Shown here: positions 485 to 18,296 of the stretch, piece by piece
Layout of the letters: each line of letters opens with the position of its first letter
How positions within the stretch are numbered: position 1 is the first letter of the stretch
Assembly: GCF_009765995.1 (NCBI RefSeq)
Contig: NZ_LMUI01000029.1
Span: 139,931-179,541 of the forward strand
Length of the DNA stretch: 39,611 bases
Origin: Methylocapsa sp. S129
Lineage (GTDB): Bacteria; Pseudomonadota; Alphaproteobacteria; Rhizobiales; Beijerinckiaceae
Direction: 5' to 3'
Made by a program: the position numbers and the translations under genes
The notes under the pieces: generated by a model
The model's input: only the letters and a program-made list of their open reading frames with translations
What the model was told of the DNA's origin: nothing
The model's database searches: none

Positions 485-1350
485 TCAGGCCGCAAGCAGA
501 AAGCGTAAGGCATCCTGCGGGAGGAGTTGGTCCCTCAGAGACCCGCGGAGCTGCACGGGTCCGATGCGTCGAAGGTCTTCATTGAAGTCGCCAAGGCGCG
601 GCGACAGCGTCAGAACCTCGATCCCAGAGTCGCGGGCGCGGCGGCTCAACCGCTCCATACCGCGACGACCGGCGGGATCGGCGTCGACCGCAATATAGAG
701 CCGACCGAGCGAAGAAGGGAGCAGGAGCGCGGCAAGGTGATTCGCTGAGAGACCGGCGATCATCGGCATGCCTGGCATGACCATGCGCAGCGACATGATA
801 GTCTCGAGCCCTTCGCCGGCGGCGAGGACCGAGAGCGGCGCGTCGGTGTGCATTCCAAAGCGAACGCCCGATCCCAGAAGGTCACCCATCGCGCGGCGCG
901 GTGACGACACAGGCGCCTTCTCTCCAATATGGTGAGGATCGAGCCAGGTGCGGTGGACGCCCGTGACGCGTCCGGCGCGATCGGTGGCAGCGGCGATCAG
1001 AGCCGGGAATATTCGCGTGGGCGCCTCATCGTTCTCGCGATAATAGCAGCGCGGGTGAAAGCGAAGAGCGTCGGCGTCGACGACAACGGGATCGATGCCG
1101 CGATGCCTGAGATAGGCGTCGGCCAGCGTGCCGCCGATCGGCCGCGACATGGCAAATAGACGGCGCGCCGCCTCGGACGAGCCGTGCGGCGCCGGCGATG
1201 ATCGAGCAGGGGAAGGGGAGGGGACCTCCGGCAACGGCAGGCTCAGAAACGCGCGCGCCTCGTCCATCGCGTCGCGCACCGATGTCAGCCCGCGGTTGAG
1301 TGCGATCAGGTCGAGAAGGTCGCCGTGCTCGTCCGTGGCGGCGTCGGTCT
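485..1350 (-). pseudogene. Toprim-domain protein, 5'-truncated copy
   Basis: The C-terminal two thirds of a toprim (primase/topoisomerase fold) protein. Toprim marks are visible: the glutamate motif AAGEGLETIMS and the aspartate motif YIAVDADPAG. Reading upstream of the first usable start (1279), the frame stays homologous to the intact paralogue at 1481-2527: TDAATDEHGDLLDLI here against TDAASLEHGDLLDVI there. Homology ends at about 1350, inside the left arm of an inverted repeat (1343-1376). Roughly 60 N-terminal residues are missing, so the gene was cut by a rearrangement at that repeat. It could still give a short protein from the GTG at 1279, but without the N-terminal region. In related plasmids toprim genes of this type accompany the strawberry-notch gene, so this is probably the original copy, on the same strand as that gene. 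Confidence 0.75.
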
Positions 1351-1460: not shown

Positions 1461-1480
1461 GTGCTGCGGGAGGTCGCGTG

Positions 1481-2527
1481 ATGGCCCGCGACGCTTCCGA
1501 ACTGGCCCGCCGCCTCGCCCAGAACGTCGAGGCGGTCTGCCGCCATTATCTGTCCAACGGCCGGCGGCAGGGCCGCTATTGGCTGGTGGGCGATGTTCGC
1601 AACACGCCCGGCCGGTCGATGTTCGTGCGGCTCAGCGGACCGGACTCCGGTCCCGGCACCGCCGGGCGCTGGACGGATGCGGCCTCGCTTGAACATGGTG
1701 ATCTGTTGGATGTCATCCGTGGAGCGCTCGGTCTTGTCGACTTCAAGGACGTTGCCGATGAGGCACGCCGCTTTCTGAGTCTGCCCAACCCGCCACCGAT
1801 CTCCTCGGCGGCGGCCCGACGCAATCCGGTCCCGCAAGGCTCACTGGAATCTGCGCGCCGATTGTTCGCTGCGTCGCGGCCCCTCGCGGGCACGCTGGCG
1901 GAGCGTTACTTGCACAGGCGGCATCTGACCGGGGTGGCCGGGCTTGCGTCCCTACGGTTTCATCCAAGCTGCTTCTACCGGCCGGAGGGGAGCGCCGAGA
2001 ACCTATCGTTTCCGGCGCTGATCGCTGCCATCACGGATCTTTCCGGCGCCATCACCGGCGTACATCGCACCTGGCTGGACCCGGCCGGCGGCAAAGCGCC
2101 GGTCGACGCCCCGCGACGGGCGATGGGCAATCTGCTCGGCCATGCGGTGCGTTTTGGGGCGGTCGATGATGTACTGGCCGCCGGTGAGGGCATCGAGACC
2201 GTGTTGTCAGTGCGCGAGATCTTGCCCGCCTTGCCGCTGGCGGCGGCACTTTCGTCCAATCATCTCGCCGCCATGCTATTTCCGGCAAGCTTACGCCTTC
2301 TCTATATCGTGCGCGATGCGGACCCGGCCGGTGACGCGGCGGTGGCGGCGCTGACGGCCCGGGCCGAGGGAGTCGGCATCGAGCCGCATGTGCTGTCGCC
2401 GCAGCTTGGCGATTTCAACAACGATCTCTGCCGCGCCGGCTTACTGGCGCTTCGCGCGAACCTGTTGTCGCAACTGCGGCCAGCGGAGGTCCAACGGTTT
2501 GCTGGACATCTGCTGCCGGTGGGCTGA
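1481..2527 (+). CDS. Toprim-domain protein (plasmid primase-like, DUF7146-type)
   Basis: A 348-residue protein. The N-terminal third contains the QGRYWLVGDVRN and RWTDAASLEHGDLLDVI segments typical of this family. The C-terminal half is a toprim domain with the AAGEGIETVL glutamate motif (about residue 230) and YIVRDADPAGD aspartate motif (about residue 275). Such proteins are thought to act on DNA or nucleotides in plasmid maintenance, but the reaction is not established. The start ATG at 1481 is preferred over the GTG at 1478 because GGGAGG at 1468-1473 lies seven bases before it. It is a paralogue of the truncated gene at 485-1350, in opposite orientation, with the recombination-like repeats between them. 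A hairpin follows the stop. Confidence 0.8.
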   Translation: MARDASELARRLAQNVEAVCRHYLSNGRRQGRYWLVGDVRNTPGRSMFVRLSGPDSGPGTAGRWTDAASLEHGDLLDVIRGALGLVDFKDVADEARRFLSLPNPPPISSAAARRNPVPQGSLESARRLFAASRPLAGTLAERYLHRRHLTGVAGLASLRFHPSCFYRPEGSAENLSFPALIAAITDLSGAITGVHRTWLDPAGGKAPVDAPRRAMGNLLGHAVRFGAVDDVLAAGEGIETVLSVREILPALPLAAALSSNHLAAMLFPASLRLLYIVRDADPAGDAAVAALTARAEGVGIEPHVLSPQLGDFNNDLCRAGLLALRANLLSQLRPAEVQRFAGHLLPVG

Positions 2528-2576: not shown

Positions 2577-2637
2577 CCAGCCCGCACAATTCAGAGCAGG
2601 AGTTATCGGCAACGAGCGCCGTAACATGACTCCTGAC

Positions 2638-3633
2638 TCACAAGGCGCTGAGGAAGGCCATCAAATCCTTGTCCTCCTTCCATGACCGACCGGGCTTTGG
2701 CTGACCGACTTCGCAAAGAGCTACGGCGTTGGCTTTCAGCGTGAGGTCTATTTCGGCATAGATATTGGTGGTGCTGATCGAGACATGGCCGAGCCAGGCG
2801 CGGATGGTGTTGATGTCTACGCCAGCGAGAACCAGGTGGCAGGCCGTTGTGTGCCGGATCACATGAGGGGTTATCGTTTTGTCAGCCAGTTCCGGCACCG
2901 CGGCCGCGTAACGCTCGATAAGGCGATAGACTCCGAACCGAGTAAAAGGCGTTCCGAGCCTGCTAACAAACACGGCGTCATCGGGAGAGCGATCGAGGAT
3001 CTCGTCTGCCAGCACTCGTTCGGTTTCCGACCACAATGGGCACTGACGCGTCTTGCCGCCCTTTCCATGCAGGGTGGCAAGGTCGTGACCGCCGTTCCCG
3101 CGCCCGATCTGCAGATCGCGTACTTTCAGTTCCGTGGCCTCGGAGACGCGCGCCCCAGTGTTGTAGAGAAAGAGCAGAAGCGCGTATTCGCGGCGGCCCC
3201 GCCTAGTCTTGCGGTCGGGCACGGCAAGCATGGCCTCCATTTCCGCCTTGGTCAGCCATCCGACTGGTGGCGGCATGGATTTCTTCGACGCGATAGCCCG
3301 GATATGGCCGCACCATTCGACAAGGGCCGGATCACGACTGCCGATGAAGCGGGCGAACGCCCGGATAGCGGCAAGCCGCTGATTGCGGGTCCGGGCAGAG
3401 CATCCGCGATCGTCTTCGAGATGTGTGAGGAACTGCAACACATGCCGAGAGGTGAGATCGCGCACAACCAGCCGGTCCACGGGCTTGCGCACCTTGCGGC
3501 TGACGAAGGGAAGCAGAAGACTGAAGGTGTCCCGGTAGCTCTTGCGAGTGTTCCGAGCCAGATTGCGCTCGGTGACAATATGTTCGGACAGGAAGCGCCG
3601 GAGCCATGGACCAAGGGTTACGACTTCAGACAT
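2638..3633 (-). CDS. Tyrosine recombinase, RitC of RIT-2
   Basis: A 331-residue phage-integrase-family recombinase. The N-terminal core-binding domain covers about residues 10-100 (RNTRKSYRDTFSLLLPFV). The catalytic domain has the expected residues: Arg in NTGARVSEATEL, Lys in HGKGGKTRQ, the HxxR box HVIRHTTA, His in WLGHVSISTTNIY and the nucleophile Tyr in the same motif. The ATG at 3633 is chosen because it overlaps the ritB stop (ATGTCTGA) and follows a GGGGAGA box; the longer frame starting at 3660 would overlap ritB more and lacks such a site. It is the third gene of the broken RIT-2 trio and appears intact. It is separated from ritA of its own element by the 3.4 kb RIT-1 insertion. Partner proteins would normally act together on the element ends. 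Confidence 0.88.
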   Translation of the reverse strand: MSEVVTLGPWLRRFLSEHIVTERNLARNTRKSYRDTFSLLLPFVSRKVRKPVDRLVVRDLTSRHVLQFLTHLEDDRGCSARTRNQRLAAIRAFARFIGSRDPALVEWCGHIRAIASKKSMPPPVGWLTKAEMEAMLAVPDRKTRRGRREYALLLFLYNTGARVSEATELKVRDLQIGRGNGGHDLATLHGKGGKTRQCPLWSETERVLADEILDRSPDDAVFVSRLGTPFTRFGVYRLIERYAAAVPELADKTITPHVIRHTTACHLVLAGVDINTIRAWLGHVSISTTNIYAEIDLTLKANAVALCEVGQPKPGRSWKEDKDLMAFLSAL

Positions 3634-3823
3634 GCTGGTCTCCCCCCGCATAACGCGCAAAGCGCAGCGATGCCTGCTGCAGAAGCTCCGGAGTCATCGT
3701 CAAATAGACCTTCGTGCCCTCCAGATCGGAATGGCCGAGGTAAGTGGAGAGCGCGGGCAACAACCGTTGCACGTCCGCGCCTCGACGATACCAGGCGGTC
3801 AGGTTGTGTACCGCGAAGCTATG
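3626..3823 (-). pseudogene. ritB of RIT-2, 3' fragment
   Basis: Reading the minus strand from 3823, the frame gives HSFAVHNLTAWYRRGADVQR, then LPALSTYLGHSDLEGTKVYL and ends DQHV at the stop 3626-3628. This is the C-terminal catalytic part of a RitB recombinase, with the LGH histidine and the VYL tyrosine. It continues exactly where the 5' fragment at 7270-7992 stops at the HxxR box (HDLRH). Joined, the two give about 305 residues, close to the 311 of RitB in RIT-1. The break is therefore the RIT-1 insertion and nothing of ritB seems to be lost. Confidence 0.88.
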
Positions 3824-3827
3824 TCGG

Positions 3828-3847
3828 TAATTCCGAATTCGGAATTA
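3828..3847. repeat. 20-base perfect palindrome at the ritA end of RIT-1
   Basis: TAATTCCGAATTCGGAATTA is its own reverse complement. It lies two bases after the target word TATGTC (3820-3825) and before ritA. The equivalent end of RIT-2 has TAATGCCGAATTCGGCATTA, also directly after TATGTC. The half site TAATTCCGA recurs, in variants, in the adjacent terminal repeat, suggesting several recombinase binding sites in a row. Confidence 0.85.
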
Positions 3848-3851
3848 GCGC

Positions 3852-3883
3852 CATAATTCCGAGTGCCGGATTATTCCGAGTGG
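3852..3883. repeat. Left 32-base terminal inverted repeat of RIT-1
   Basis: Bases 3852-3883 are the exact reverse complement of 7241-7272. The repeat contains two tandem copies of a 17-base word (14 of 17 identical in the right-hand copy) beginning CACTCGGAAT when read inward from the right end. A 125-base stretch between this repeat and ritA has no ORF and probably holds the ritA promoter. Confidence 0.88.
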
Positions 3884-4010
3884 TCTGTTTGTGATCGCTT
3901 GATGGTCCTTAATTTCAGAGACTTGGATAGGTCTTGATGATTGCCAGCTCGGCATTGCTCGGCTGTCTTCCATGAACGAGGATTTTCCTCGGCTCTAATG
4001 GAGACGAATG

Positions 4011-5249
4011 ATGACCGATCCTGACTGTGACGCGGCGACGTGGGTCAAGGCGTCCCGCGTTGGCCCGTTGGCAACCCACATCGATGCATTTGCGGCACGG
4101 CTCGGCGGCGAGGGTTACACGTCAACGACGGTGCGCGACAAATGCGAACTCGTGGCAAAACTGAGCGCTTGGCTTTATCGGCGCAATCTTTCACGGGATG
4201 CGCTCGACGAGGGTCACCTTAACCAGTTTCACGCAGATCGTCGCCGCCAAGGTCATGTGCGGCGCGGTGAGGTGGCGACCGGCCAGCAACTGCTCAGATA
4301 TCTACGTGACCTCGGTTGCGTTCGGAGCCTGCCGCCAGGACCTGATCCAACCCCTCTGGACAATCTGACGCGGGACTTCGGGCGTCACCTGAGTTCGGAG
4401 CGTGGCTTGTCACCTGCAACCTTGGGCAACTATCTACCAGTTGTTCGAAGATTTCTCACAGAGCGGTTTGACGGAAAGCCGATGCAGTTCGACGAACTGC
4501 GCCCGATCGACATTCAGCGTTTTGTTGTACGTCACGCTCAGACGGGAAGCCGTCGCAGCGCTCAATTGATGATCACCGCGTTGCGTTCGTTTCTGCGCTT
4601 TTTGCGACAACGAGGCGCGATTTCGATGGATCTCGCTGGCGCCGTGTCGGGGATAGCCGACTGGCGCCTGTCGCATCTGCCCAAGTCCATTCCGCCTGAA
4701 CAGGTTGAGCGGATGCTCGTGTCTTGTGATCGCAGCGTACCAGTCGGTGAACGCGACTATGCGATCTTGTTGCTTCTGGCGCGCCTCGGATTGCGCGCTG
4801 GAGAGGTCGTCGCCTTGACCTTGGACGATTTGGATTGGGAACGGGGCGAGATTCTCGTCCGCGGCAAGGGCCAGCGGCTTGTGCGATTGCCGCTGCCGAC
4901 GGACGTCGGCGCGGCGCTTGTCGACTATTTGCGTCACGCCCGTCCCCGCGGTTCGATACGACGGGTTTTCATCCGCATGCGCGCGCCGTTGCGCGGCCTG
5001 GCCGGCCCCTCCGCTATTGACTGCGTCGTCTGTCGCGCCCTCAAGCGCGCCGGTTTGAACCCATCGTTCAAAGGGGCCCACCTGCTGCGGCACTCCCTCG
5101 CCACCGATTTATTGCGTCGAGGCGCTTCGCTGACCGAGATCGGACAGCTCCTGCGTCATAGCCAGCCAACCACGACGCAAATCTACGCCAAGGTGGACAT
5201 CGCGGCGCTACGCACCCTTGGCCTTGCTTGGCCGGGAGCCGCCTCATGA
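4011..5249 (+). CDS. Tyrosine recombinase, RitA of RIT-1
   Basis: A 412-residue site-specific recombinase. It has an extra N-terminal helical part (about residues 15-110), a core-binding domain (about 115-205, GLSPATLGNYLPVVRRFL) and a catalytic domain (about 220-400). Catalytic residues are present: Arg in LGLRAGEVV, Lys in RGKGQRL, HLLRHSLA, His in LRHSQPTTTQ and Tyr in IYAKVD. The ATG at 4011 is six bases after GGAGA; the adjacent ATG at 4008 is the alternative. The stop overlaps ritB by four bases (ATGA), so the trio is translationally coupled. In RIT elements the three recombinases are thought to act together on the element ends. It is clearly different in sequence from RitA of RIT-2, so the two elements are different families rather than recent copies. 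Confidence 0.92.
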   Translation: MTDPDCDAATWVKASRVGPLATHIDAFAARLGGEGYTSTTVRDKCELVAKLSAWLYRRNLSRDALDEGHLNQFHADRRRQGHVRRGEVATGQQLLRYLRDLGCVRSLPPGPDPTPLDNLTRDFGRHLSSERGLSPATLGNYLPVVRRFLTERFDGKPMQFDELRPIDIQRFVVRHAQTGSRRSAQLMITALRSFLRFLRQRGAISMDLAGAVSGIADWRLSHLPKSIPPEQVERMLVSCDRSVPVGERDYAILLLLARLGLRAGEVVALTLDDLDWERGEILVRGKGQRLVRLPLPTDVGAALVDYLRHARPRGSIRRVFIRMRAPLRGLAGPSAIDCVVCRALKRAGLNPSFKGAHLLRHSLATDLLRRGASLTEIGQLLRHSQPTTTQIYAKVDIAALRTLGLAWPGAAS

Positions 5250-6181
5250 GCCCGCTGCGAAAGACGCTCGACGAATATCTGGCCATGCGTCGCGCCCTCG
5301 GGCACAAACTCTGTCGGGCCGGACACCTGTTGCAGCAGTTCGTCGCGTTCGCCGATCTGGCCGGCGCAACCTACGTCACCACCGATCTCGCGCTGGCATG
5401 GGTGAGCCAGCCTTGTGGGGCGGCGCTCGCTGAGAGAGCCGGTCGCTTGGGGATCGTGCGTCGCTTCGCGCAATACTGCGGCGCGCTCGACTCGCGAACC
5501 ATCGTGCCGCCGCACGGCCTGCTTCCCCATCGCTATCAGCGTCCGACGCCGTATATCTATCGTGATGAGGAGATCTCTCGCCTACTCGACGCGGCGCGGC
5601 AACTGTCCTCCTCAACCGGGTTGCGGCCTCATACCTACTCCACCCTCTTCGGCCTATACGCGGTGACCGGCATGCGATGCCGCGAACCGCTGCAACTCGA
5701 TCGCGATGACGTGGACTTGGTGAACGGCGTGCTGACGATCCGCGGCGCGAAGTTCGGCAAGTCCCGCTACGTCCCGCTGCACGTCTCCGCGCAATGCGCT
5801 TTGAACAGCTACGCAACGTGGCGGGATCGTTTGTGCCACTACCCCGCAAGCGCAAGCTTCTTTGTCTCTGATTGTGGGGGCCGCCTCACCGACGGGAGCG
5901 TCCGACGGACGTTCGTCCAATTATCTCACAAGATCGGCCTGCGAAGCGCCGGCGCCAGCCGAGGTCCACGCCTGCATGATCTCCGCCATCGAATGGCCGT
6001 CAACACGCTCCTCGCCTGGTATCGCGACGGCGTCGATGTCGAGCGACGTCTGCCTGAACTCTCGACTTATCTCGGCCATGCGCACATCACCGATACCTAC
6101 TGGTATCTCACGGCGACGCCAGAGCTGTTGCGGCAGGCGCTATTCCGCGTGGAGCCATCCGAGCGGGAGGCTTTGCCATGA
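5246..6181 (+). CDS. Tyrosine recombinase, RitB of RIT-1
   Basis: A 311-residue recombinase with all catalytic residues: Arg in TGMRCREPLQL, Lys in GAKFGKSRYV, HDLRHRMAV, His in YLGHAHITD and Tyr in TYWYLTAT. The start ATG at 5246 overlaps the ritA stop by four bases and follows CGGGAGC. The stop overlaps ritC by four bases. The N-terminal part (LDEYLAMRRALGHKLCRAG) is the conserved RitB opening. Its intact HDLRH box shows what the interrupted ritB of RIT-2 looked like at the insertion point. Confidence 0.92.
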   Translation: MSPLRKTLDEYLAMRRALGHKLCRAGHLLQQFVAFADLAGATYVTTDLALAWVSQPCGAALAERAGRLGIVRRFAQYCGALDSRTIVPPHGLLPHRYQRPTPYIYRDEEISRLLDAARQLSSSTGLRPHTYSTLFGLYAVTGMRCREPLQLDRDDVDLVNGVLTIRGAKFGKSRYVPLHVSAQCALNSYATWRDRLCHYPASASFFVSDCGGRLTDGSVRRTFVQLSHKIGLRSAGASRGPRLHDLRHRMAVNTLLAWYRDGVDVERRLPELSTYLGHAHITDTYWYLTATPELLRQALFRVEPSEREALP

Positions 6182-7176
6182 AAGCCGCCAATACATTCCC
6201 CACTCTGCTGGAGGCGTTCTTCATCGACCGTCTCATGCGGCAGCGACAGGTGAGCCCCCACACTCTCGCCAGCTACCGGGATACCTTCCGTTTGCTGCTG
6301 CAATATGCGCAACGACAGCTTGGCAAAGCGCCATCGGCCCTTCCGCTGCCCGATCTGGACACTCCGTTCCTCGGCGCCTTCCTCGATCATCTCGAACAGG
6401 AACGCGACAATAGCGCCCGCAGTCGCAACGTCCGCCTCGCCGCCATCCACTCTTTTTTCCGCTATGTGGCGCTGCACGCACCCGAGCACAGCGCCCTGGC
6501 GCAGCGCGTGCTCGCCATGCCGAGCAAGCGCTATCAACGGCGGCCGATCGACTTTCTAGCGCCCACCGAAGTGGCCGCTCTACTGGCGGCGCCCAACCTC
6601 GACACCTGGATCGGGCGTCGCGATCGAGCTTTGTTGCTGCTTGCCGTGCAGACCGGGCTACGCGCCTCCGAACTTCTCGGCTTGCGCTGTCACAACTTCG
6701 TGCTCGGGCCCAGCGCCCATGTGCAATGCCAGGGCAAGGGACGCAAAGTCCGCAACACGCCGCTACGCAAGGAAACCGCTACAGTGTTGCGCAACTGGTT
6801 CCAAGAGCACCATGGCCAGCCTTCAAGACCTGCCTTTCCGACAACCTCAGGCGGGGCATTGAGCCATGACGGCCTGCAATATCTGCTCAACAAGCACCTC
6901 GCCGTCGCCTGTCGTCAGTGCGCTTCATTGTCCGGCAAGCGCGTGACGCCCCACGTGCTCCGGCACACGCTGGCGATGAACCTGCTTCACCGCGGCGTCG
7001 ACCGTTCCGTGATCGCGCTTTGGCTGGGCCACGAGTCTATCGAGACGACATCTATCTATTTGCATGCCGATATGCAGCTCAAGGAAGCAGCGCTTGCCAA
7101 AACCCCGGCCACCGATGCGCACGCACGCCGATACCGACCCGATGATCACCTCCTGACCTTTCTCAGGAGCCTCTGA
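6178..7176 (+). CDS. Tyrosine recombinase, RitC of RIT-1
   Basis: A 332-residue recombinase. Core-binding domain at about residues 10-100 (RQVSPHTLASYRDTFRLLL), catalytic domain at about 115-330 with Arg in TGLRASELLGL, Lys in QGKGRKVRN, HVLRHTLAM, His in WLGHESIETT and Tyr in SIYLHAD. The start overlaps the ritB stop (ATGA) and follows GGGAGG at the right distance. It is the last gene of RIT-1; 64 non-coding bases separate its stop from the right terminal repeat. Confidence 0.92.
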   Translation: MKAANTFPTLLEAFFIDRLMRQRQVSPHTLASYRDTFRLLLQYAQRQLGKAPSALPLPDLDTPFLGAFLDHLEQERDNSARSRNVRLAAIHSFFRYVALHAPEHSALAQRVLAMPSKRYQRRPIDFLAPTEVAALLAAPNLDTWIGRRDRALLLLAVQTGLRASELLGLRCHNFVLGPSAHVQCQGKGRKVRNTPLRKETATVLRNWFQEHHGQPSRPAFPTTSGGALSHDGLQYLLNKHLAVACRQCASLSGKRVTPHVLRHTLAMNLLHRGVDRSVIALWLGHESIETTSIYLHADMQLKEAALAKTPATDAHARRYRPDDHLLTFLRSL

Positions 7177-7240
7177 TTATGACGATCCCCACACAGGCCA
7201 ACTTCAGAAAATCCGTGGGATCTCCACGCCATTTGGATCC

Positions 7241-7272
7241 CCACTCGGAATAATCCGGCACTCGGAATTATG
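7241..7272. repeat. Right 32-base terminal inverted repeat of RIT-1
   Basis: Exact reverse complement of 3852-3883. It reads as two tandem 17-base words, 7242-7258 and 7259-7275, both starting CACTCGGAAT and matching at 14 of 17 bases. The last bases (ATG, 7270-7272) are also part of the interrupted ritB, so element and target share a short overlap as expected for tyrosine recombinase crossover. Confidence 0.88.
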
Positions 7273-7992
7273 CCGAAGATCGTGCAGGCGGGCACCGCGC
7301 GTTCCTTTTGGACCTCGAATACCCAATTGTCGGGCGAGCCTGACGAAGACCACATGCACTCTTGTTGCCGTTGGCGCGCGCCCGGTGGTGACAACGAAGA
7401 GATCGTCGCTATCGCCGTCCCATTTTTCTCGAATGGCAAGATAGTCATCCAACGCGCGGCGTGTGCTGGAGTGGAGAGGCACGAGTCGACTCTTGTCGAA
7501 CTTGCCGGTTCTCAGAATGAGGCCGTCATCTGTCAGATCTCCGCGTTTAAGCGCCAATGCTTCGGAGATGCGGATGCCGGTCGCGGCCAATAGACCGAAT
7601 ATGTAATGATAGGTGTACGGGCTGATTGTCCCCTGCGGGGAGACCTCCAGCGCCGCCTGCATGATTGCGGTCACCTGATCCGGCCGCAATATGTGTGGGG
7701 CCGGACGCGGGCGCCTGCCTCGACCAAAAATGCCCGCAGGCAGTACCTCATGCCGAGCGTCCTCCGCGTTTAGGAAGAGAGAAAACCGGCGAACCGTGTC
7801 ACACCAGGTTCTTGCGCTGTTGGGCGTTGAGGCGGTCGCGCACCAGCTCCGAATGCGAACCGCGGTGATGTACCGATCGCCCAATGCTTCGGCGTGGGCC
7901 GCAAACAGTCCGAGAATGCGCTCCTGCTGATTAAAAGACAGACCAAGCTGCCGCTGCAGGGCCACATAGCGATCAACGTCTTGGTTCAGCAT
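7270..7992 (-). pseudogene. ritB of RIT-2, 5' fragment
   Basis: The first 241 codons of a RitB recombinase, start ATG at 7992, overlapping the ritA stop (7986-7988). The N-terminus is MLNQDVDRYVALQRQLG; the catalytic Arg lies in TGIRISEALAL and Lys in TGKFDKSRLV. The frame reaches the HxxR box (GARLHDLRH) and then runs into RIT-1 sequence, which adds 21 foreign codons (NSECRIIPSGDPNGV and on) before a stop at 7204. The catalytic His and Tyr are missing, so any product is inactive. The rest of the gene is at 3626-3823. Confidence 0.88.
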
Positions 7993-9518
7993 GACGCGAT
8001 CTCCGGCCAGGGCTGAACCACGCGTTGAAGCATCGTCGTATCGACCTTCGCGTAGATGGTTGTTGTGCTCCTATGGCTGTGCCGAAGTACAGTCCCAACC
8101 GCGTCGAGACTCGCGCCTGAGCGCAGCATGTTGGTACCAAGCGAGTGGCGAAACACATGCGAGCCGGTCGGCACATCATCGATGCCGGCGCGTGCCAGCA
8201 CGCGCGAGACAATGCCGGCGATCTCGGCTGACGACGAAAACGGCCGAAATGGCGCCTGGACACGCAGAAATACGCGATCTGTCGAGGCGGGCGGTCTGGC
8301 CTGGCGTAAGTAGGCCAGCAGCGCCTCTCCCACATCCTGCGGCAATGGCAACATGCTCGGACGTCGCCCCTTGCCTTTGACGCGAATCCGCCCATTTGCC
8401 CAATCCACGTCGGGTAAGCGTAAGGCCCAGACGTCGCCCGCGCGCAGGCCCAGTCGCGCCAAGAGAAGTATGATGGCCTTATCGCGAATCTCGACTGGCG
8501 TGGTTGTGTCACAAGACGCGATTATCCTCTCGATCGTCGCCTGTGGGGCGTGGCGGGGAAGCTTTATGCTGCGACGGCGCGCCGGGGGAACGACGTAGGA
8601 AAGTTCCGGACGGCATTCGCCGCGTGCGGATAGAAAGCGCAAATAGGCGCGCAACACCGTCACGGTCATCCGTACTGAAGAGCGTGATCGAGACTGCGGC
8701 TGCTTGAGCACGATGTCGCGCAACATGGCTGCATCGTAAGCTGCCGGATCGAGTGGCAGCTTCGAAAGCCATCGCGTTACTTCCTGGACGTAGCGGCGGA
8801 TTGTCCCCGCCGTGGCGCCGCGTTGCCGCTCAAGCCATGAGCGGAATGCCGTGATCCGGTGATCTTCTTGGACCCCAGAGACAATGGCCGGTTGAAGCAC
8901 GCCGCGAGCCCGGAGGAATCCGACGAAGCGGCGTGCGCCCCGGCGGCGATGCTTTTGTCCCGTTGGCTCCGCCAACTTCGCGCGCTTGCGCGTTATCGGA
9001 CACCGGCAGAGATGCCGGGCGAACCGCTCTATAACGTCATCGTCAATATCGCGCCCAAGTTGGCGTGAGAACCGCAGCCAGCACGAAAAATGCTCGGCTT
9101 CCGAGCAGTACCCGCGCCAGATGACCCGGCTGTATCCCTCGGTACTCAAGTCCTTGGCGTAGTCACCGAGGTGTGCGTCGATGCATCCCGCGCCACCCGC
9201 GACTGGGATATCACCTGCATCTTCAAGAAACCGCACGAGCCGGCGAGTGTGACTGAGATAGAGGTCCGTGGAGACTTGGTGCGCGCTGTATCGTGGGCAT
9301 CGGCATCGATGTCGCCGGAATCGCTGAACGATGGACTCGTCCACACTGCTGAGAGCGATTGCTCGTTTGTCGAGCCAGAAGAGAAAGTGACGCGCCGCGC
9401 TCTTATACTGCCTGCCGTCGCCGGTGAGCCCGTTCTTGGCAAGATGATCAAGGAATCGGACTGCGGGCGTGTAGTCCGGCGGGCGGCAATCACTGGAGGG
9501 GTAGAGGGATGCGGTCAA
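7986..9518 (-). CDS. Tyrosine recombinase, RitA of RIT-2 (long form)
   Basis: A 510-residue recombinase, about 100 residues longer than RitA of RIT-1. The extra length is at the N-terminus, where two helical SAM-like segments follow each other (about residues 15-110 and 115-210) before the usual core-binding domain. Catalytic residues: Arg in LGLRAGDVW, Lys in KGKGRRPS, HVFRHSLG, His in LRHSHRST and Tyr in TIYAKVD. I place the start at the TTG codon at 9518 because AAGGAG lies seven bases before it; the frame is open up to a TTG at 9566 that has no good site. The gene is intact and could still act together with RitC, but its RitB partner is broken. Confidence 0.88.
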   Translation of the reverse strand: MTASLYPSSDCRPPDYTPAVRFLDHLAKNGLTGDGRQYKSAARHFLFWLDKRAIALSSVDESIVQRFRRHRCRCPRYSAHQVSTDLYLSHTRRLVRFLEDAGDIPVAGGAGCIDAHLGDYAKDLSTEGYSRVIWRGYCSEAEHFSCWLRFSRQLGRDIDDDVIERFARHLCRCPITRKRAKLAEPTGQKHRRRGARRFVGFLRARGVLQPAIVSGVQEDHRITAFRSWLERQRGATAGTIRRYVQEVTRWLSKLPLDPAAYDAAMLRDIVLKQPQSRSRSSVRMTVTVLRAYLRFLSARGECRPELSYVVPPARRRSIKLPRHAPQATIERIIASCDTTTPVEIRDKAIILLLARLGLRAGDVWALRLPDVDWANGRIRVKGKGRRPSMLPLPQDVGEALLAYLRQARPPASTDRVFLRVQAPFRPFSSSAEIAGIVSRVLARAGIDDVPTGSHVFRHSLGTNMLRSGASLDAVGTVLRHSHRSTTTIYAKVDTTMLQRVVQPWPEIASC

Positions 9519-9580
9519 GTGGTAGCTCCTTCGTGTTGAGAGAAACGCGAGAGGGAGCTTAGCCAACCAGGAGAAATATT

Positions 9581-9670
9581 ATGCCGAGCAACAAACCCAA
9601 AAAACGCAGGAATAAGGGGCCAATCTGGCTGGATCACCCCATAACGACGGACGCCAGAGAATACGTGTAA
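9581..9670 (+). CDS. 29-residue basic peptide at the ritA end of RIT-2
   Basis: A short ORF reading MPSNKPKKRRNKGPIWLDHP and ending DAREYV. It has a textbook ribosome binding site (AGGAG at 9569-9573, seven bases before ATG), better than that of most genes here. It is divergent from ritA, whose start is 62 bases away, and its TAA stop is the first three bases of the 20-base palindrome. The basic KPKKRRNK stretch would suit DNA or RNA binding. I recognise no family. It may be a small regulator or accessory factor of the element, or chance; the strong ribosome site argues for the former. Confidence 0.45.
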   Translation: MPSNKPKKRRNKGPIWLDHPITTDAREYV

Positions 9671-9687
9671 TGCCGAATTCGGCATTA
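9668..9687. repeat. 20-base perfect palindrome at the ritA end of RIT-2
   Basis: TAATGCCGAATTCGGCATTA is its own reverse complement and shares the core CCGAATTCGG with the palindrome of RIT-1. On the minus strand it directly follows TATGTC (9688-9693), the last codons of the interrupted strawberry-notch gene, and it supplies the TAA that now ends that gene. Confidence 0.85.
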
Positions 9688-12228
9688 GACATACTCACGC
9701 GGCGTGATGTCGACTTGAATGTCCGTCCATTCCTCCGTCGGAATATCGGCGAGTCTTCGCTCCAGCAGCGCCTCGCCGGTCGAAACGATCTGGATCACTG
9801 AGGCGTGGCCGGCGGAAAGGTCGCTCTCAATCGAAGCGATCAGCGTCGGCGTCTTCATCGCTGTGATCAGGTGATTGAAGAAACGCTGCTTGCTCGATTC
9901 GAAAGCCGAGAGCGCCGCCGACATCGCCTGGCCGTTGAGCGTCCCGCGCTCGGAACGGATGTTCGACGCCTTCATCGCCTCCCTCAGATTATTGTGTATG
10001 ATCTGGAATGCGAGGGCATAGGCGTCGTAGATGCGGATCTGATCCGGCGTGAGTTGGTACTCGACGAGCTCGTATTCGACGCCTTCGTAGGAGAGCGACC
10101 GCGCGGCGTAGAGGCCGAGCGCCTTAAGATCTCGCGCCAGCACCTCCATGGCGGCGACGCCTCCTTCCTCGATGGCGGTGACGAACTCGGTGCGATTGGC
10201 GAAGGGAAAGTCGACGCCGCCCCACAGGCCAAGTCTTTGTGCATAGGCGAGGTTCTCGACGGTGGTCGCGCCGGTCGCCGAGACATAGAGGACGCGGGCG
10301 TCCGGCAGGGCGTGCTGCAGCCGCAGCCCAGCCTTGCCCTGCTGGGATGCGGCTTGATCGCCTCGTGCCGTCTTGCCGCCGGCGGCGTTGGCCATCGCAT
10401 GGGCTTCGTCGAACACGATGACGCCGTCGAAGTCCCGCCCCAGCCAATCGACGATCTGCTGGACCCGGCTCACCCTGCCCTCGCGCTCCTGCGAACGGAT
10501 GGTCGCATAGGTCGTGAAGAGGATGCCTTCCTCGAGCCGGATCGGCATGCCCTGACGGAAGCGCGAGAGCGGCGTGACCAGAAGCCGTTCCTGGCCGAGC
10601 GCGGACCAGTCACGCTGGGCGTCCTCGAGCAATTTATCCGACTTCGACACCCAGACGGCGCGACGACGGCCTCGCAGCCAATTGTCCAGCAACACGCCGG
10701 CGACCTGGCGACCCTTGCCGGCGCCGGTGCCGTCGCCAAGGAACCAGCCGCGGCGGAAACGCACCGAATTCTCGGCGTCGTCAGGCGCCGCGGAAACGAG
10801 GTCATAAGTGGCGTCGACCGTCCACGCGCCGTCGAGGTGGCCTGAATGCGCCTCTCCCGCATAGATGACGCTTTCGAGTTGGGCGTCGGAGAGGGGGCCG
10901 TCGGCGGCGGCATTTGCCGGAAGGAGCGGTCGATAACTCGGCTTCGGCGGCGCCACCGATGCCATGGCCGCCGATTGCACGAGCATCGTCGGATGCGGCC
11001 TGGCGTCCGGAATCCGGATGGATTGCAGAACGTAACCTTCGTAGATCGCGTCCGACAGCGATCCGCCGTTGACCGGCTTCCAATCGGCCGTCTCGTATTC
11101 GAGTTCGATCGCCGAAGGTTCGGCGCGCGGGGTAGGGGAGGGCGCGCGCGCTGATCGCGGACGCTGCGTAATGGGCGCCGCTCGGCGAACGGCGGGAGCG
11201 GGTATCGAAGTCGGTGCAACCGGCGCGCGGGCCGGCACGTCGGTCAGCACCCATTCGAGCAGAGTGGCGACATCGGCCGTCGCCCGCGGCGTCGGAAATC
11301 TCGCCGGGTTCTCGGCCGGCACCTTGTCGATCACCGTGAGCCGCGTCTCGATCGTCGTGCCGTGCGGCGCGTAGACCTTGCCGTCGATCGCGGCGGAAAA
11401 CACGACGCGCCCGCGTTCCTGGAGAGTGATGAAGGCCTCGCGCCATTGCGGCGCATCAGGCGAGAGCCCCGCGCCCGTGATGGCGACGAGGCGTCCGCCA
11501 TCCGCCAGTCGCGCAAAAGCCGACAAGATGTGCCGAAGGGCGGCGTCGCGGACCTTGCCATCGACATGCGCGGCGACGGAGAAGGGCGGGTTCATCAGCA
11601 CGACGCTCGGCCGGACGGCGCGATCGAGACGATCGTCGATTTGCGCCGCGTCGTGGCGCGTAACCGCGACTTCCGGGAACACCAGGCCGAGGAGATCGGC
11701 GCGAACGTCGGCGAGTTCGTTGAGCGCCAGGGTGACGCCATCCCGCTCGGTGAGAACCGCCAGCAGCCCCGTGCCAGCCGACGGCTCGAGGACAACGTCG
11801 CCCTGGACAAATGCACCCGCGGTCGCCGCGGCGAAGCCAAGACCGAGCGGCGTCGAGAACTGCTGATACGCTTGGCTCTCATCGGAGCGGCGCGTCTGCG
11901 TCGGCAGCAAGCCTGCGACGCGTGACAGCATGGCGAGGAGGCGCGCAGGCGTAGGAGCCTGGCGTCGCATCGCTGCGCCGTATCGCCGGAGAAAGAGGAC
12001 CTGCGCGACCTCGCAGGCCTCACAGCCGTCCTTCCATAGCCAAGCCCCTTCGGCGTCCGAGCCGCCGAAGGCCGCATCCATGGTGGAACGCAAAGCCGCG
12101 GCGCCGATAGCGCGACCGGCGGCCAGGGCGGGAAGGATCATCTCGGCGGCGCGCAGAATGCGCGGGGCCTTGTCAACAGTCGAGGGAGAGTTGGCGGCAG
12201 GGAGCGGCGCCGGAACGTGATGGTTCAT
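9685..12228 (-). pseudogene. Methyltransferase/helicase of strawberry-notch (DarB-like) type, 3'-truncated by RIT-2
   Basis: 847 residues remain of a protein normally about 1,300-1,500 long. An N-terminal DNA methyltransferase domain shows EPSAGTG (about residue 150) and the NPPF motif (about 212), as in adenine methyltransferases. The helicase part shows Walker A GDGTGAGKGRQ, the DEAH-type box VFDEAHAM and the motif III YVSATG. The frame ends DITPREYV and the stop codon lies inside the RIT-2 palindrome, so the C-terminal helicase domain is gone. Proteins with this fusion include phage P1 DarB, which protects incoming DNA from restriction; a similar role on a conjugative element is inference. 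The start ATG 12228 has only a weak GGA box; a GC hairpin lies upstream at 12287-12309. The protein may still be made but should lack helicase activity. Confidence 0.85.
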
Positions 12229-12286
12229 GATGCGGGATCCAGGAGAGCGAGTCGGAACGATCCGCCGGATGCTCTCTCTCGATCCC

Positions 12287-12309
12287 GGCCGGACCGTCCC
12301 TTTCCGGCC
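12287..12309 (-). repeat. Hairpin upstream of the strawberry-notch gene
   Basis: GGCCGGA at 12287-12293 pairs with TCCGGCC at 12303-12309. It lies between the small upstream gene and the strawberry-notch start and belongs to a series of similar leader hairpins in this gene block. Confidence 0.5.
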
Positions 12310-12324
12310 TGCCTCTCGCTCTTA

Positions 12325-12495
12325 TCAGGCCGCAGCCTTGACGCCGCGCCACCAGGCGTCGCGCTCCTCCGGCGTCGCGTTCGCCAGACGTAGCAAAAGA
12401 TCGCCGTGACGAGCGAGCGGCTCTCGTGGCCGACGACGGCCATCGTGCGGCTTTACCCCAATCAGGCTTGTGGCCCGATCAGCGGGAACTCTCAC
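12325..12495 (-). CDS. Small conserved-looking protein (56 residues)
   Basis: Start GTG at 12495 overlaps the stop of the preceding gene by four bases (GTGA), suggesting translational coupling. The protein reads MRVPADRATSLIGVKPHDGR and ends GDLLLRLANATPEERDAWWR followed by GVKAAA. The charged, tryptophan-containing C-terminus looks like a genuine protein and I have a faint memory of similar tails in plasmid proteins of alphaproteobacteria, but I cannot name a family. It lies in the same operon direction, just upstream of the strawberry-notch gene. Function unknown. Confidence 0.55.
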   Translation of the reverse strand: MRVPADRATSLIGVKPHDGRRRPREPLARHGDLLLRLANATPEERDAWWRGVKAAA

Positions 12496-13235
12496 GTGTG
12501 ATCGATCTGTCGCCGTTCAGCGGCGCGAATCGCCTGAATCGCGGCACGGAACTCGGCCGCGCCGCGCTCCTCGGCGAGGTCGCTATGGTCGACGACCGCG
12601 AGGCACGCGGCGCGGACGTCATCGGCCGTCACATCGGAGGCTGCGATCGTCGTCAGGTCTGGATCGGATTCGATAGCTACGGCAACCTGCTCGCTGACAG
12701 CCTCTTCGCTAAGACGAAGAAGCACATGCGCGCCGCCGACGATCGGAGCGGCGTCCGACGACAAGAAGTCCTCCAGAATATCGTTCGTCGACTTTCCCCT
12801 GACAGAATCGGCCGTGATCATCACCGCCATGCCGCCGAACCCATCCGGGCGCATCCGGCTGCAGGTGAAGGCCGAAACCGCTGTGACATGATCGAGGGTC
12901 GCCGAACGGCGAACGATGTCTTGGAAAATAAATTCCCACGACATGCCGCTGAGGTCGATTTCGATTGTTTCCTCGTCGACGGCGAGGCTCGCTAGCCGTT
13001 CCGAGACATAGTCGCTTGCGGTGCTCTGAAAGCCCGACGACGCCTCGATGGCTTCCCGCAACGCCGATGCTTCCAATTCAAAGCTGTCGCTGGGTCCGAT
13101 CGAGGTGAAGAAATAGACGCCGTCGCCATCGATCTCCGCCTCAAAGACCTGTCCGAGGATGAGGCGCTCGAGCGGCGTCATGTCGGCGTTCGGAATCGCC
13201 GGCTGTATGACGGTTGGAGTGAAATAGTCGGCCAT
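12492..13235 (-). CDS. Conserved plasmid protein of unknown function (247 residues)
   Basis: Starts ATG at 13235 after GGAGAG, reading MADYFTPTVIQPAIPNADMT. The longer open frame upstream of this start has a different composition and overlaps a decayed gene, so I reject it. The central part, MSWEFIFQDIVRRSATLDHV followed by SRMRPDGFGGMAVMITAD, is acidic and soluble with no membrane segment. I recall similar proteins in plasmid gene blocks with ParB-like and strawberry-notch genes, all without known function. A GC hairpin (13260-13277) lies just upstream of the ribosome site. It is coupled to the small downstream gene by GTGA overlap. Confidence 0.7.
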   Translation of the reverse strand: MADYFTPTVIQPAIPNADMTPLERLILGQVFEAEIDGDGVYFFTSIGPSDSFELEASALREAIEASSGFQSTASDYVSERLASLAVDEETIEIDLSGMSWEFIFQDIVRRSATLDHVTAVSAFTCSRMRPDGFGGMAVMITADSVRGKSTNDILEDFLSSDAAPIVGGAHVLLRLSEEAVSEQVAVAIESDPDLTTIAASDVTADDVRAACLAVVDHSDLAEERGAAEFRAAIQAIRAAERRQIDHT

Positions 13236-13259
13236 TGCGGTCTCTCCAGAATTGAAAAG

Positions 13260-13277
13260 CCCGGCGCTAAGGCCGGG
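13260..13277 (-). repeat. Leader hairpin of the 247-residue gene
   Basis: CCCGGC at 13260-13265 and GCCGGG at 13272-13277; on the minus strand the stem is followed by CTTTTC and then by GGAG of the next gene, so it could act as a weak terminator or attenuator. Confidence 0.55.
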
Positions 13278-13305
13278 TTTCTGAGGGGGAATGAGTAGAT
13301 GCGGT

Positions 13306-13500
13306 TCAAAGACGCCACGCTTGGACGATCTCCTACGCCTGACGATCGTGGACGAGCATGTCGCGCTAGAAGGCGTTACGACCATCGCGTTTTGACGGAT
13401 CGCGGCGCGCTTGGTTTGCGAGCTTGTTGGTGGCGGCGCGAACCAGGTCGCGCCAAGACGCCTAGACATGCACATCGAGACGGAGATGGGTCCCGTACAT
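13306..13500 (-). pseudogene. Small gene with three in-frame TAG codons
   Basis: From ATG 13500 the frame reads MYGTHLRLDVHV, TAG (13462-13464), ASWRDLVRAATNKLANQARR and on to GRNAF, TAG (13366-13368), RDMLVHDRQA, TAG (13333-13335), EIVQAWRL and TGA (13306-13308). The segments between stops look like one continuous helical, basic protein of about 64 residues: the pattern AFxRDML..HxxQAxEIV fits Tyr at the second stop and Gln at the third, each one base change from TAG. The start is two bases after the stop of the DUF6915-like gene and has GGAGA ten bases before it, so it was once part of the operon. Frame is kept throughout and all three stops are amber. Decay by point mutation is the simplest reading; suppression is possible but unsupported, since other genes here end in TAG. 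Confidence 0.6.
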
Positions 13501-13502
13501 GA

Positions 13503-13883
13503 TCAACCGGTCTCCGCGGAGGTTGATGAAGCAAACGCCGAGTCGATCTCCTTTTCGAGACGTTGCGCCCGACCCATCCATGGTTCCGGGCGCATGCAGC
13601 GCACCCAATCGGCAAACGACGGAATGAAGCCGAGGTCTTCGATCACATGCTGCTCGCCCACGCAGCGCGTCGGAATGATCCGGCCCGACGACAGCGTAAG
13701 AGTTGGACCGAAGATCGTCTCGGCCATAAAGATGCCCTCCGTGTGGTGTCGCAGGGCGCGATGGCGAAAGTCAGCGGTGATCCGCTTCGAAGCGTCGAAC
13801 CAGTTATGAACCGCCATACAGTCGTCGACGCTTCCGCCCCATTTCTTCACTGAGGAAAGTGCGTGATGGTAGGGATTAGCCAT
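13503..13883 (-). CDS. DUF6915-like protein
   Basis: A 126-residue protein beginning MANPYHHALSSVKKWGGSVD, with WFDASKRITADFRHRALRHH in the middle and PTRCVGEQHVIEDLG near residue 75. The combination of a WFD box, the FRHRALRHH helix and GEQHVxEDLG is what I recall as DUF6915, small soluble proteins of unknown function that are widespread on plasmids and integrative elements of alphaproteobacteria. The start follows GGGAGGAAGCC. The next gene (the amber-containing one) starts two bases after its stop; the gene before it (DUF6878-like) ends 11 bases upstream, so these are one transcription unit. Confidence 0.75.
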   Translation of the reverse strand: MANPYHHALSSVKKWGGSVDDCMAVHNWFDASKRITADFRHRALRHHTEGIFMAETIFGPTLTLSSGRIIPTRCVGEQHVIEDLGFIPSFADWVRCMRPEPWMGRAQRLEKEIDSAFASSTSAETG

Positions 13884-13894
13884 GGCTTCCTCCC

Positions 13895-14365
13895 TCAGAA
13901 TTCGTGGGAATAATTTACGGACGCTGTATAGCGTTCGTTGTAATCCAGGCGGATCGTCCGATCGGCGACGTCGAACGTGAACTCGCCATAGGCGCCATCA
14001 TTGTCCTCCCAGCCGTCATGCGCGCTGCCGAGGAAGTCGTAGATGAGCTTCTCGATCGCGTCGGCGAGAGACATTGACTGTCTTTGAGGTTCTCGTTCGC
14101 CCCAGATTGAGGTGGCGATCTCGACCGTGGCGGCGGGCAGGGTATCGACGGCGCCTTCGATCTCGAGACGTTCGATTTGGCCGCTGTCGCCGTAGCCATC
14201 GAAGGTGACAACGACGGTCGCGATCCCAGCGGCGTCGAGCGCGTCAAAGACGACGGTCTTGTTGTGGAGGTGAAGTTCGACGCAAAGGCGATGATGCGAA
14301 ATGCGATCGGACTTCCCGTCGTCTCCCGTTGCCACCATTGGATCGATATCCATTGGTTCTGTCAC
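13895..14365 (-). CDS. DUF6878-like protein
   Basis: A 156-residue acidic protein. Typical segments are VVVTFDGYGDSGQIERLEIE, the helix ADAIEKLIYDFLGSAHDGWE and the C-terminal GAYGEFTFDVADRTIRLDYN, which I recall as DUF6878. The start is GTG at 14365, six bases after AGGAG (14372-14376); the ATG at 14398 lies upstream of that site and is rejected. Function is not known. A leader hairpin (14387-14403) sits just upstream of the ribosome site, and the DUF6915-like gene follows after 11 bases. Confidence 0.75.
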   Translation of the reverse strand: MTEPMDIDPMVATGDDGKSDRISHHRLCVELHLHNKTVVFDALDAAGIATVVVTFDGYGDSGQIERLEIEGAVDTLPAATVEIATSIWGEREPQRQSMSLADAIEKLIYDFLGSAHDGWEDNDGAYGEFTFDVADRTIRLDYNERYTASVNYSHEF

Positions 14366-14386
14366 GACAATCTCCTGAAACATAAA

Positions 14387-14403
14387 GCCCGGCGACACCG
14401 GGC
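14387..14403 (-). repeat. Leader hairpin of the DUF6878-like gene
   Basis: GCCCGG at 14387-14392 and CCGGGC at 14398-14403, directly upstream of the AGGAG box on the minus strand. Same type as the hairpins before the neighbouring genes. Confidence 0.55.
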
Positions 14404-14452
14404 GAGGGAATGGAATGAGCGTCGATGGGCCGGACCCACCGACGCGACGTCG

Positions 14453-15088
14453 TCAGGGCGCAATCGGAACCGCGCGATATTCGATTGGCTGGCCGCCGAT
14501 GAAGGTCGGAACCAGCGCCCTCGCGCGGGCGCAAGCCGCCTCGGCGTCAGCGAGGGTTGGAAAGCGCATCGCCTGCTGGAGCGAGGAAGCGCATGTTCCC
14601 CACTTTACATCCCAGCCGCAGAGGTAATCCATCTCACCGTGATGATTGATGATGCGAGCGACGACATAAGATATCGACGCCTCGGACGACTCCTCGTCTG
14701 GATTGTTGGCGCCAATGAGGATCGCCTCCGCCTTCGCGATAGCGTCCCGCGCGCGCGGAGCCCAGAATTTCCGGTCCACCTCGTCGAGCGGGCGCTCGTG
14801 CGCAAAAATCTTCAGAAGTCCGAGCAACGTCTCGAAAAGGTCGACCTTGCGCTGGCCGGTCTCCTCAAATCGCGACGGGACGGCCTCAGCCCGACCGGAA
14901 TAGGCCGTTTCGCCGCGCCACGCGCCCGAGACATAGGCGTCGCCCGTGGCCTCATAGTCGCGCCTCTGGTCGTCCCAATCGTCGTCTTCGACAGCGAGGC
15001 GGCACGCCTGCTCGACGGTATCTGCCGCATAGGTTCGATGGCGAAAGAGGGGAAGGCGATAGGTGGTTTCGATCGTGAAGACTGGCAT
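14453..15088 (-). CDS. Conserved plasmid protein of unknown function (211 residues)
   Basis: Starts MPVFTIETTYRLPLFRHRTY. ATG 15088 is chosen over ATG 15094 because AGGAG lies seven bases before it and only one base before the other. The first 50 residues contain RHRTYAADTVEQACRLAVED, a pattern of small proteins with a YxAxTxExA helix. The later part has a helical segment (LFETLLGLLKIFAHERPLDE) and a Cys/Trp-containing stretch (YLCGWDVKWGTCASS). No membrane segment. I recognise no named domain; placement in the ParB/Sno gene block suggests a plasmid or element backbone role. Confidence 0.65.
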   Translation of the reverse strand: MPVFTIETTYRLPLFRHRTYAADTVEQACRLAVEDDDWDDQRRDYEATGDAYVSGAWRGETAYSGRAEAVPSRFEETGQRKVDLFETLLGLLKIFAHERPLDEVDRKFWAPRARDAIAKAEAILIGANNPDEESSEASISYVVARIINHHGEMDYLCGWDVKWGTCASSLQQAMRFPTLADAEAACARARALVPTFIGGQPIEYRAVPIAP

Positions 15089-15110
15089 CGTCATACTCCT
15101 GAAAATGAAT

Positions 15111-15134
15111 GAGCCCGGCGCGATGGCCGGGCTC
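15111..15134 (-). repeat. Leader hairpin of the 211-residue gene
   Basis: A perfect 9-base stem, GAGCCCGGC at 15111-15119 and GCCGGGCTC at 15126-15134, followed on the minus strand by ATTCATTTTC and AGGAG. The strongest of the leader hairpins in this block. Confidence 0.6.
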
Positions 15135-15158
15135 GTGGGAGTGGTTTTCGAGAGGGAG

Positions 15159-15533
15159 TCAGGCGGCTTGAACGGTTCTGGCCAAATCGCCAGTCACGGC
15201 GAGCACACGCTCGGCAAGCGCCGGGATGTCGTCGAGAAGCGACAGCGGCGTGAAATGATTGGCGCCGCCGGTATAGTCCCGCCGGCCACGACAGGTCCGA
15301 ATCAGAATCCCGGTGTTCGCGCGGGTGGCGGGCTGCGAGACATGCACGTAGACCTTTTCGTGATGCAGGATGACTTCGCCTGAGACGGCGATTCCACCTT
15401 GGTTGGAGCGAAGATCGAAGCTGCCGGCGGGTAGCCCCAACTCGGCTGCGAGTTTGCGCAAGCGGGCGCGGGCGGTCGCATGGAAGCGGCGCTTGCGCTC
15501 GAGTTCATACGAGCAGGTGGCGTACCAGTCCAT
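15159..15533 (-). CDS. Conserved plasmid protein of unknown function (124 residues)
   Basis: Starts MDWYATCSYELERKRRFHAT with ATG 15533 seven bases after GGGAGG. The start overlaps the preceding stop (TGATG), so the two genes are translationally coupled; the longer frame to 15656 is rejected for this reason. The N-terminus is a basic helix (RRFHATARARLRKLAAELGL), followed by a beta-rich part (GGIAVSGEVILHHEKVYVHV) and the RTCRGRRDYTGG segment. No named domain recognised. Confidence 0.65.
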   Translation of the reverse strand: MDWYATCSYELERKRRFHATARARLRKLAAELGLPAGSFDLRSNQGGIAVSGEVILHHEKVYVHVSQPATRANTGILIRTCRGRRDYTGGANHFTPLSLLDDIPALAERVLAVTGDLARTVQAA

Positions 15534-16036: not shown

Positions 16037-16060
16037 GATGAAGCTCCTGAATCGACGAAA

Positions 16061-16078
16061 CCCGGCGCTGCGGCCGGG
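16061..16078 (-). repeat. Leader hairpin of the 167-residue gene
   Basis: CCCGGC at 16061-16066 and GCCGGG at 16073-16078; on the minus strand followed by TTTCGTCGATTC and AGGAG. It lies in the 102-base gap after the ParB-like stop and could end part of the parB transcripts. Confidence 0.55.
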
Positions 16079-16138
16079 TCTGTCGGGTGGATGGGAAGGG
16101 GAAAGACGAAGCGGCGCGGCCGCCCCGCCGGCGCGGAC

Positions 16139-18274: not shown

Positions 18275-18296
18275 TTCCATTTCTCCGCGACGGATG

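Follow-up and report, generated by a model that had tools for sequence, protein, structure and literature searches.

A clade of Recombinase-In-Trio elements that probably integrates into the box II codons of tyrosine recombinase genes

RIT-1, a Recombinase-In-Trio (RIT) element of the alphaproteobacterium Methylocapsa sp. S129, lies between two pieces of ritB genes on the opposite strand, directly at the codons of the catalytic box HDLRH. The element is part of a 39,611-nucleotide stretch of contig NZ_LMUI01000029.1 (positions 139,931 to 179,541), hereafter the window, to which the coordinates below refer unless another locus is named. Judging from the junctions compared here, the integration site of the RIT-1 clade is very probably the box II coding DNA of tyrosine recombinase genes, where HxLRH, or a variant of it, precedes xFA; in most cases, the gene is the ritB of another RIT. 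In excerpts of the cited papers, to which all the cited statements below are limited as well, RITs are described as elements of ∼3.5 kb that consist of three overlapping tyrosine recombinase genes, ritA-B-C, with inverted repeats overlapping a palindromic sequence (PMC3414803).

RIT-1 resembles these known RITs in having the same trio, inverted ends and a palindrome (PMC3414803). The trio consists of ritA (4008-5249, 413 amino acids), ritB (5246-6181) and ritC (6178-7176, 332 amino acids), all on the plus strand and all encoding tyrosine recombinases that match PF00589, with the catalytic boxes HLLRH, HDLRH and HVLRH, respectively. The genes overlap by ATGA at 5246-5249, where the ATG of ritB overlaps the ritA stop codon, and at 6178-6181, so that the three intact overlapping recombinase genes described in an earlier note on this DNA are borne out by the gene coordinates and the domain matches. 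As expected of a RIT, the three genes are adjacent, run in one direction and each belong to their own family, and the order of the trio is kept in the relatives. The ends form a 35-bp inverted repeat with 97% complementarity, the left, ritA-side copy at 3849-3883 (plus strand) and the right, ritC-side copy at 7241-7275 (minus strand). Between the left repeat and the C-terminal piece of the host ritB, that is, on the host C-terminal side, lies a 20-bp palindrome without strand, TAATTCCGAATTCGGAATTA (3828-3847), which is absent from the account in the earlier note; together with the 35-bp ends, it fits the RIT plan of inverted repeats of ∼28-34 bp and a palindromic sequence. The minus-strand N-terminal piece of the interrupted ritB ends in ...RLHDLRH, with these codons abutting the right repeat at ∼7270, and the C-terminal piece (3826-3626) begins with RHSFAV... 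and runs through to the stop codon, so the interruption of ritB at the HDLRH codons reported earlier is real.

The same position recurs in the relatives of RIT-1. Scanning of genome contigs with the RIT-1 RitA yielded 33 loci, of which seven with identity of 41% or less (L060-L066) were excluded from the junction table. Junctions with a 60-bp flank were obtained, one or more per locus, from 19 of the remaining 26; the other seven, with no recognized repeat or too little flank, gave none (L038, L039, L042, L054, L055, L057 and L059). Added to the table were five plasmid matches, from 11 such records with at least 60% RitA identity, seven of the eight stretches with extra copies (L115 was omitted as it comes from the same contig as L067), the window itself and C33, another contig of the same genome. 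The repeat pattern identified 63 ends in this set, and after removal of five with less than 60 bp of flank, 58 junctions remain, four of them from RITs outside the core clade (two in L035 and two in L056). Flanks with the palindrome were labeled C, and flanks without it that end in the box II motif were labeled N.

Box II codons are found at 57 of the 58 readable junctions. All 26 junctions with the palindrome read outward R-H-x-F or a variant thereof (RQ in L036, SH in L056 and Trp in place of Phe in the outer RIT of L035), and 31 of the 32 palindrome-free junctions terminate in box II, mostly HDLRH, with HDFRH, HDMRH, HTLRH, YDLRH (L050) and QDFRH (L041) among the endings. The suggestion of the earlier note that HxxR-encoding DNA is a target for RIT insertion is strongly supported by these junctions, by hosts that belong to several branches of the RIT tree, by a second insertion in the same genome and by three copies on one Mesorhizobium plasmid. 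Chance placement was considered and rejected, given that the same codons are found at dozens of junctions.

Of the 57 host fragments, 50 match at least one of 17 Rit references (E≤1e-3), and for 44 the best match is a RitB, although one of these 44, the N fragment of L056, is an integron integrase according to NCBIfam; the C fragment of L072 matched RitC only past its first 69 residues. No Rit match was obtained for seven fragments: the two from the outer host of L035, L036 C, the two from L047, the ritC end of L058 and L109 N (13 amino acids). In a Pfam search with 10 of the less clear fragments, eight match PF00589 (L047 N only below the cut-off); in three N pieces, the match stops at profile position 134, and in five C pieces, it begins at 133 or 134. 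The hosts in L052 and L067 are Xer-like and those in L056 and L058 (ritA end) are integron-integrase-like, all with scores below the curated cut-offs, as expected of gene pieces. Thus, by sequence similarity, the hosts appear to be mostly RitB of other RIT lineages along with some integron-integrase-like and Xer-like genes. L035 (6282-13607) is a three-deep nest in which an integrase-like gene (WHDLRH) holds a RIT whose ritB, in turn, holds a core-clade RIT, and in L056 (2792-6867), a deeper relative of RIT-1 splits the integron-integrase-like gene at HTLRH.

Several observations weigh against integration at box II or limit its support. The ritA end of L070 (one of the 58 junctions) is not at a recombinase box, the C flanks of L036 and the ritC end of L058 contain the motif yet match no Pfam recombinase, and the N-side flanks that match no Rit reference, three in number, are short (13, 34 and 39 amino acids). 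The N and C labels themselves make use of the palindrome, so that the side on which the palindrome lies is tested only by the coding content of the flanks, and there are near-copies among the loci (L048/L049 and L071/L108). The repeat pattern matched 21 of the 23 genomes or records from which the loci derive (the exceptions being those of L052 and L057), compared with none for the reversed pattern, but it was drawn from the same loci and is therefore not independent of them. In two overlapping sets of 385 and 398 genomes, from scans of the class and the phylum, the pattern was found only in the window's own genome and added no further members, and a scan of viral contigs gave none.

The target consensus reads approximately CAYGAYNTNMGNCAT at N-side junctions and MGNCAYNNNTTYGC at C-side junctions. 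This being a DNA motif, DNA is what is recognized, and the target could be merely a short word, the core plus a few arm bases, that is common in recombinase genes, such that recombinases are not sought as such; the ritA end of L070, outside any recombinase box, would fit such a target. We consider this rather unlikely: nearly all junctions are in recombinase genes, these genes come from different families and differ in their codons, and the motif seems to be long enough to be largely limited to DNA coding for box II.

In a hand count of the core-clade insertions that have both an N and a C side, the C side adjoins the ritA end in 10 (window, L035, L036, L037, L045, L048, L050, L053, L071 and L109) and the ritC end in six (L044, L046, L052, L068, L072 and L108). 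There are, in addition, loci with two N sides (L040, L041 and L047) or two C sides (L058 and L069), as would be expected from recombination between inserted copies. On one Mesorhizobium plasmid, L071 and L108 have flanks that are 99.4-100% identical, with the element inverted and the palindrome flipped but still on the C side, and on the same plasmid, a different host gene holds L109, an element with 99.86% identity. Such nearly identical copies in different host genes of one plasmid imply that relatives of RIT-1 have, in all appearance, moved recently. The possibility that the palindrome is host DNA or a target duplication was rejected: it travels with the element, with the same center, in both orientations (L071, L108 and L109), and is absent from all six uninterrupted RitB sites that were inspected. 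By eye, several host RITs of other lineages have a similar plan, with the repeat plus one palindrome.

The presence of both orientations suggests that the attachment site is circular and symmetric and has nMGNCA (M is A or C) as its 6-bp core. Under the proposed mechanism, an element of the RIT-1 type would form a circle in which the palindrome and the terminal repeats on either side of it make up a single large, symmetric attachment site that would hold two copies of the core. The target core would consist of the last base of the residue preceding the Arg, the Arg codon and the CA of the His codon; exchange of either of the two element cores with the target core would set the orientation, and the insertion would split the host gene. 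Among the 29 unique N sides, 27 have T as the third base of the His codon (the pattern permitted T or C), whereas the 26 unique C sides are divided between C (13), T (12) and A (one), a difference suggesting that the exchange stops short of this base. In several insertions, the core bases differ between the N and C sides (for example, CGGCA versus CGACA in the window).

The RitAs that are at least 57% identical form one branch (95/98, 28 rows), and the host RitAs included in the tree fall on several separate branches, with none inside the branch of RIT-1. The clade also differs from its targets in the vicinity of box II. The box in RIT-1's own ritB reads HDLRHRMA, with Met where the targets carry Phe, and the second residue after box II is Leu or Met in all 29 of the clade's own full-length RitBs (a hand-picked set that includes near-copies), compared with Phe in 25 and Trp in one of the 26 unique target C sides (these include L036, L056, the ritC end of L058 and the outer host of L035). 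The deeper relatives L054-L056 carry Phe at this residue. The pattern is consistent with self-avoidance, but might perhaps reflect one ancestral change instead. It is conceivable, and in our estimate close to an even bet although slightly below it, that the clade is a dedicated recombinase-hunting lineage that breaks the catalytic codons of its competitors, above all in the ritB genes of other RITs, with the Leu or Met of its own RitBs conferring escape, so that the conflict would be written into the code of the active site.

RITs as such are known, and their reported insertion sites include radC, tnpA of IS66 and the transposase gene of a Tn6049-like transposon (PMC3414803, PMC2864759). In the parts of these papers covered here, no lineage is placed at recombinase box II codons, unlike the RIT-1 clade. 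The box II target thus seems to be undescribed: it is not mentioned in the literature searched, whose coverage leaves out the main RIT papers, and priority is accordingly not certain. The RITs on plasmid pHG1 of Cupriavidus necator H16 have been described as a ‘maze', without an explanation in terms of targets (PMC2864759). A pHG1 trio (L073, 13434-16608, within the region 10345-19678), the RitA of which is 44.6% identical to that of RIT-1, lies between two inverted ritC-like pieces that both end in PHTLRH; the same box is cut as in the case of RIT-1, but here it lies in ritC. Tn554 and the strand-biased circularizing integrative elements also employ tyrosine recombinases, show target specificity and carry a 6-bp donor sequence to the new site (PMC10214605). 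The gene sets of these elements differ from those of RITs, and the palindrome-centered symmetric site with insertion in either orientation is proposed here for RITs only.

The ‘res-site hunters' Tn5053 and Tn402, as well as homing introns and inteins, target a conserved recombination site or the catalytic codons of other genes. The enzymes involved are different from those of the RIT-1 clade, for which the target is the coding sequence of its own enzyme class. Were the box II target confirmed, this would be a clear case of mobile elements that prey on each other via the active-site code of their own enzymes, with a possible explanation for RIT tangles like that on pHG1, for broken ritB genes and for some of the broken integron integrase genes. 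The choice of target by RITs and their need for three recombinases are considered open questions (PMC3414803, PMC10214605). With the target expressible as a DNA motif, the attachment site predicted at the level of single bases and one rule giving both the orientation and the placement of the palindrome, the mechanism becomes testable.

The host in the window itself is composite. The earlier note held that RIT-1 is nested in a single other RIT, ‘RIT-2', and that the two ritB pieces rejoin into a full protein. The pieces are indeed on the same strand, in order, and jointly make up a RitB of the usual length, but they come from different RitB subfamilies. The N-terminal piece is 68% identical to the RitB of a Methylocystis RIT and 34%, over parts only, to that of Aminobacter, whereas the C-terminal piece is 87% identical to the Aminobacter RitB, 84% to that of Mesorhizobium and 45% to that of Methylocystis. 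The adjacent genes divide in the same manner: the RitA is 60% identical to that of Methylocystis and 30%, over parts only, to that of Aminobacter, and the RitC is 89%, 87% and 38% identical to those of Aminobacter, Mesorhizobium and Methylocystis, respectively. Because the pieces match different subfamilies, an outcome that the note had itself named as fatal to nesting, the single-host scheme fails, and with the other half of the left element, along with the front part of the interrupted toprim gene, located on C33, nesting of one RIT in one other RIT is highly improbable. Instead, ‘RIT-2' is two half elements of different RitB subfamilies joined through RIT-1, and for each of these, separately, uninterrupted relatives of the kind sought in the earlier note were found.

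The right half belongs to a strawberry-notch-type RIT and includes the N-terminal piece of ritB (7270-7992, minus strand, 241 amino acids), cut after HDLRH, with the PF00589 match stopping at profile position 134, and ritA (7986-9566, minus strand; start codon uncertain). A palindrome without strand (9668-9687) marks its outer end and lies at the codons for REYV in a strawberry-notch-type gene, the N-terminal part of which (AAA_34; 9685-12228, minus strand) ends at REYV; the sole match in the genome to the C-terminal half of such a gene is a separate, uninterrupted frame of 1465 amino acids. The related Methylocystis-plasmid RIT likewise adjoins a gene broken at the REYV codons; on L074, one of the two Methylocystis plasmids, the annotation splits its ritA into pieces. 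The assembly yielded no C-terminal partners for the strawberry-notch-type RIT, in searches that did not target its ritB C-terminal partner individually. The ritC on contig C56 was examined as the missing half and not accepted, being truncated at the 5' end and the only rit match in a 13-kb stretch. The left half belongs to a toprim-associated RIT and includes the C-terminal piece of ritB (3626-3826, minus strand), ritC (2638-3639, minus strand) and, within the apparent limits of the element, a toprim/DUF7146 gene (1478-2527, plus strand). A palindrome followed by a bipartite repeat, without strand (1346-1373), is read as its outer end and falls inside another toprim gene (485-1345, minus strand). 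The limits of 2597-9693 proposed earlier for the nested pair thus require revision: the left half reaches ∼1346 rather than 2597, and the palindrome on the right is at 9668-9687.

Contig C33 contains a second junction at HDLRH codons in the same genome. A 32-nucleotide part of the RIT-1 repeat occurs three times in the genome when up to three mismatches are allowed, all three exact, two on the window contig and one on C33, the first 87 bp of which correspond to the left end of RIT-1 (99%) and are followed directly by a RitB ending in ...RLHDLRH. The RitA and the RitB N-terminal piece of C33 are, respectively, 80% and 82% identical to those of the Aminobacter toprim-associated RIT, and on C33, the front part of a toprim gene leads into a RIT-like repeat, the rear part being found in the window with the palindrome and repeat at ∼1346. 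Because the subfamily match and the outer ends agree, C33 and the left part of the window look like two halves of one toprim-associated element.

A complication that counts against simple integration at box II is that, in this genome, both toprim-type ritB halves adjoin the ritA end of RIT-1, which is impossible by a single insertion, so that rearrangement or mis-assembly must be added. Altogether, there are three junctions, in which the N and C pieces of the toprim type both adjoin a ritA end, and the strawberry-notch-type N piece adjoins a ritC end. Two insertions, one in the strawberry-notch-type and one in the toprim-type RIT, might have swapped their C-terminal sides at the common palindrome and core, and one such exchange would yield all three junctions. 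Alternatively, the hybrid could be an error, whereby the assembler passed through one of two near-identical copies of RIT-1 into the wrong flank. This is a serious possibility, even if we lean somewhat away from it. C33 stops 87 bp inside RIT-1, the assembly consists of 62 contigs with a repeat of 3.4 kb, and the missing C-terminal partners of the strawberry-notch-type RIT would be accounted for, but the loci with two N or two C sides come from other records, one of which (L069) is a complete plasmid, and pHG1 has a similar arrangement with a related trio. The earlier note had suggested a search for strains with the empty site; none was found within the species, and 149 related genomes have no full-length match to RIT-1, and 11 of them have short or partial matches only.

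The toprim-associated RIT (1346-2640 in the window; 1-3300 in L007) apparently carries toprim/DUF7146 genes while breaking another toprim gene. Strawberry-notch-type genes carry insertions of a different RIT lineage at their REYV codons, in L074 and L075 (both 5813-9585) and at 9668-9687 in the window, which suggests that these codons are another conserved coding motif that serves as a RIT target. At the far end, the window contains a 95-bp inverted repeat (37172-37266 and 39517-39611) with 98.9% identity between the copies, the second of which is located at the end of the contig.

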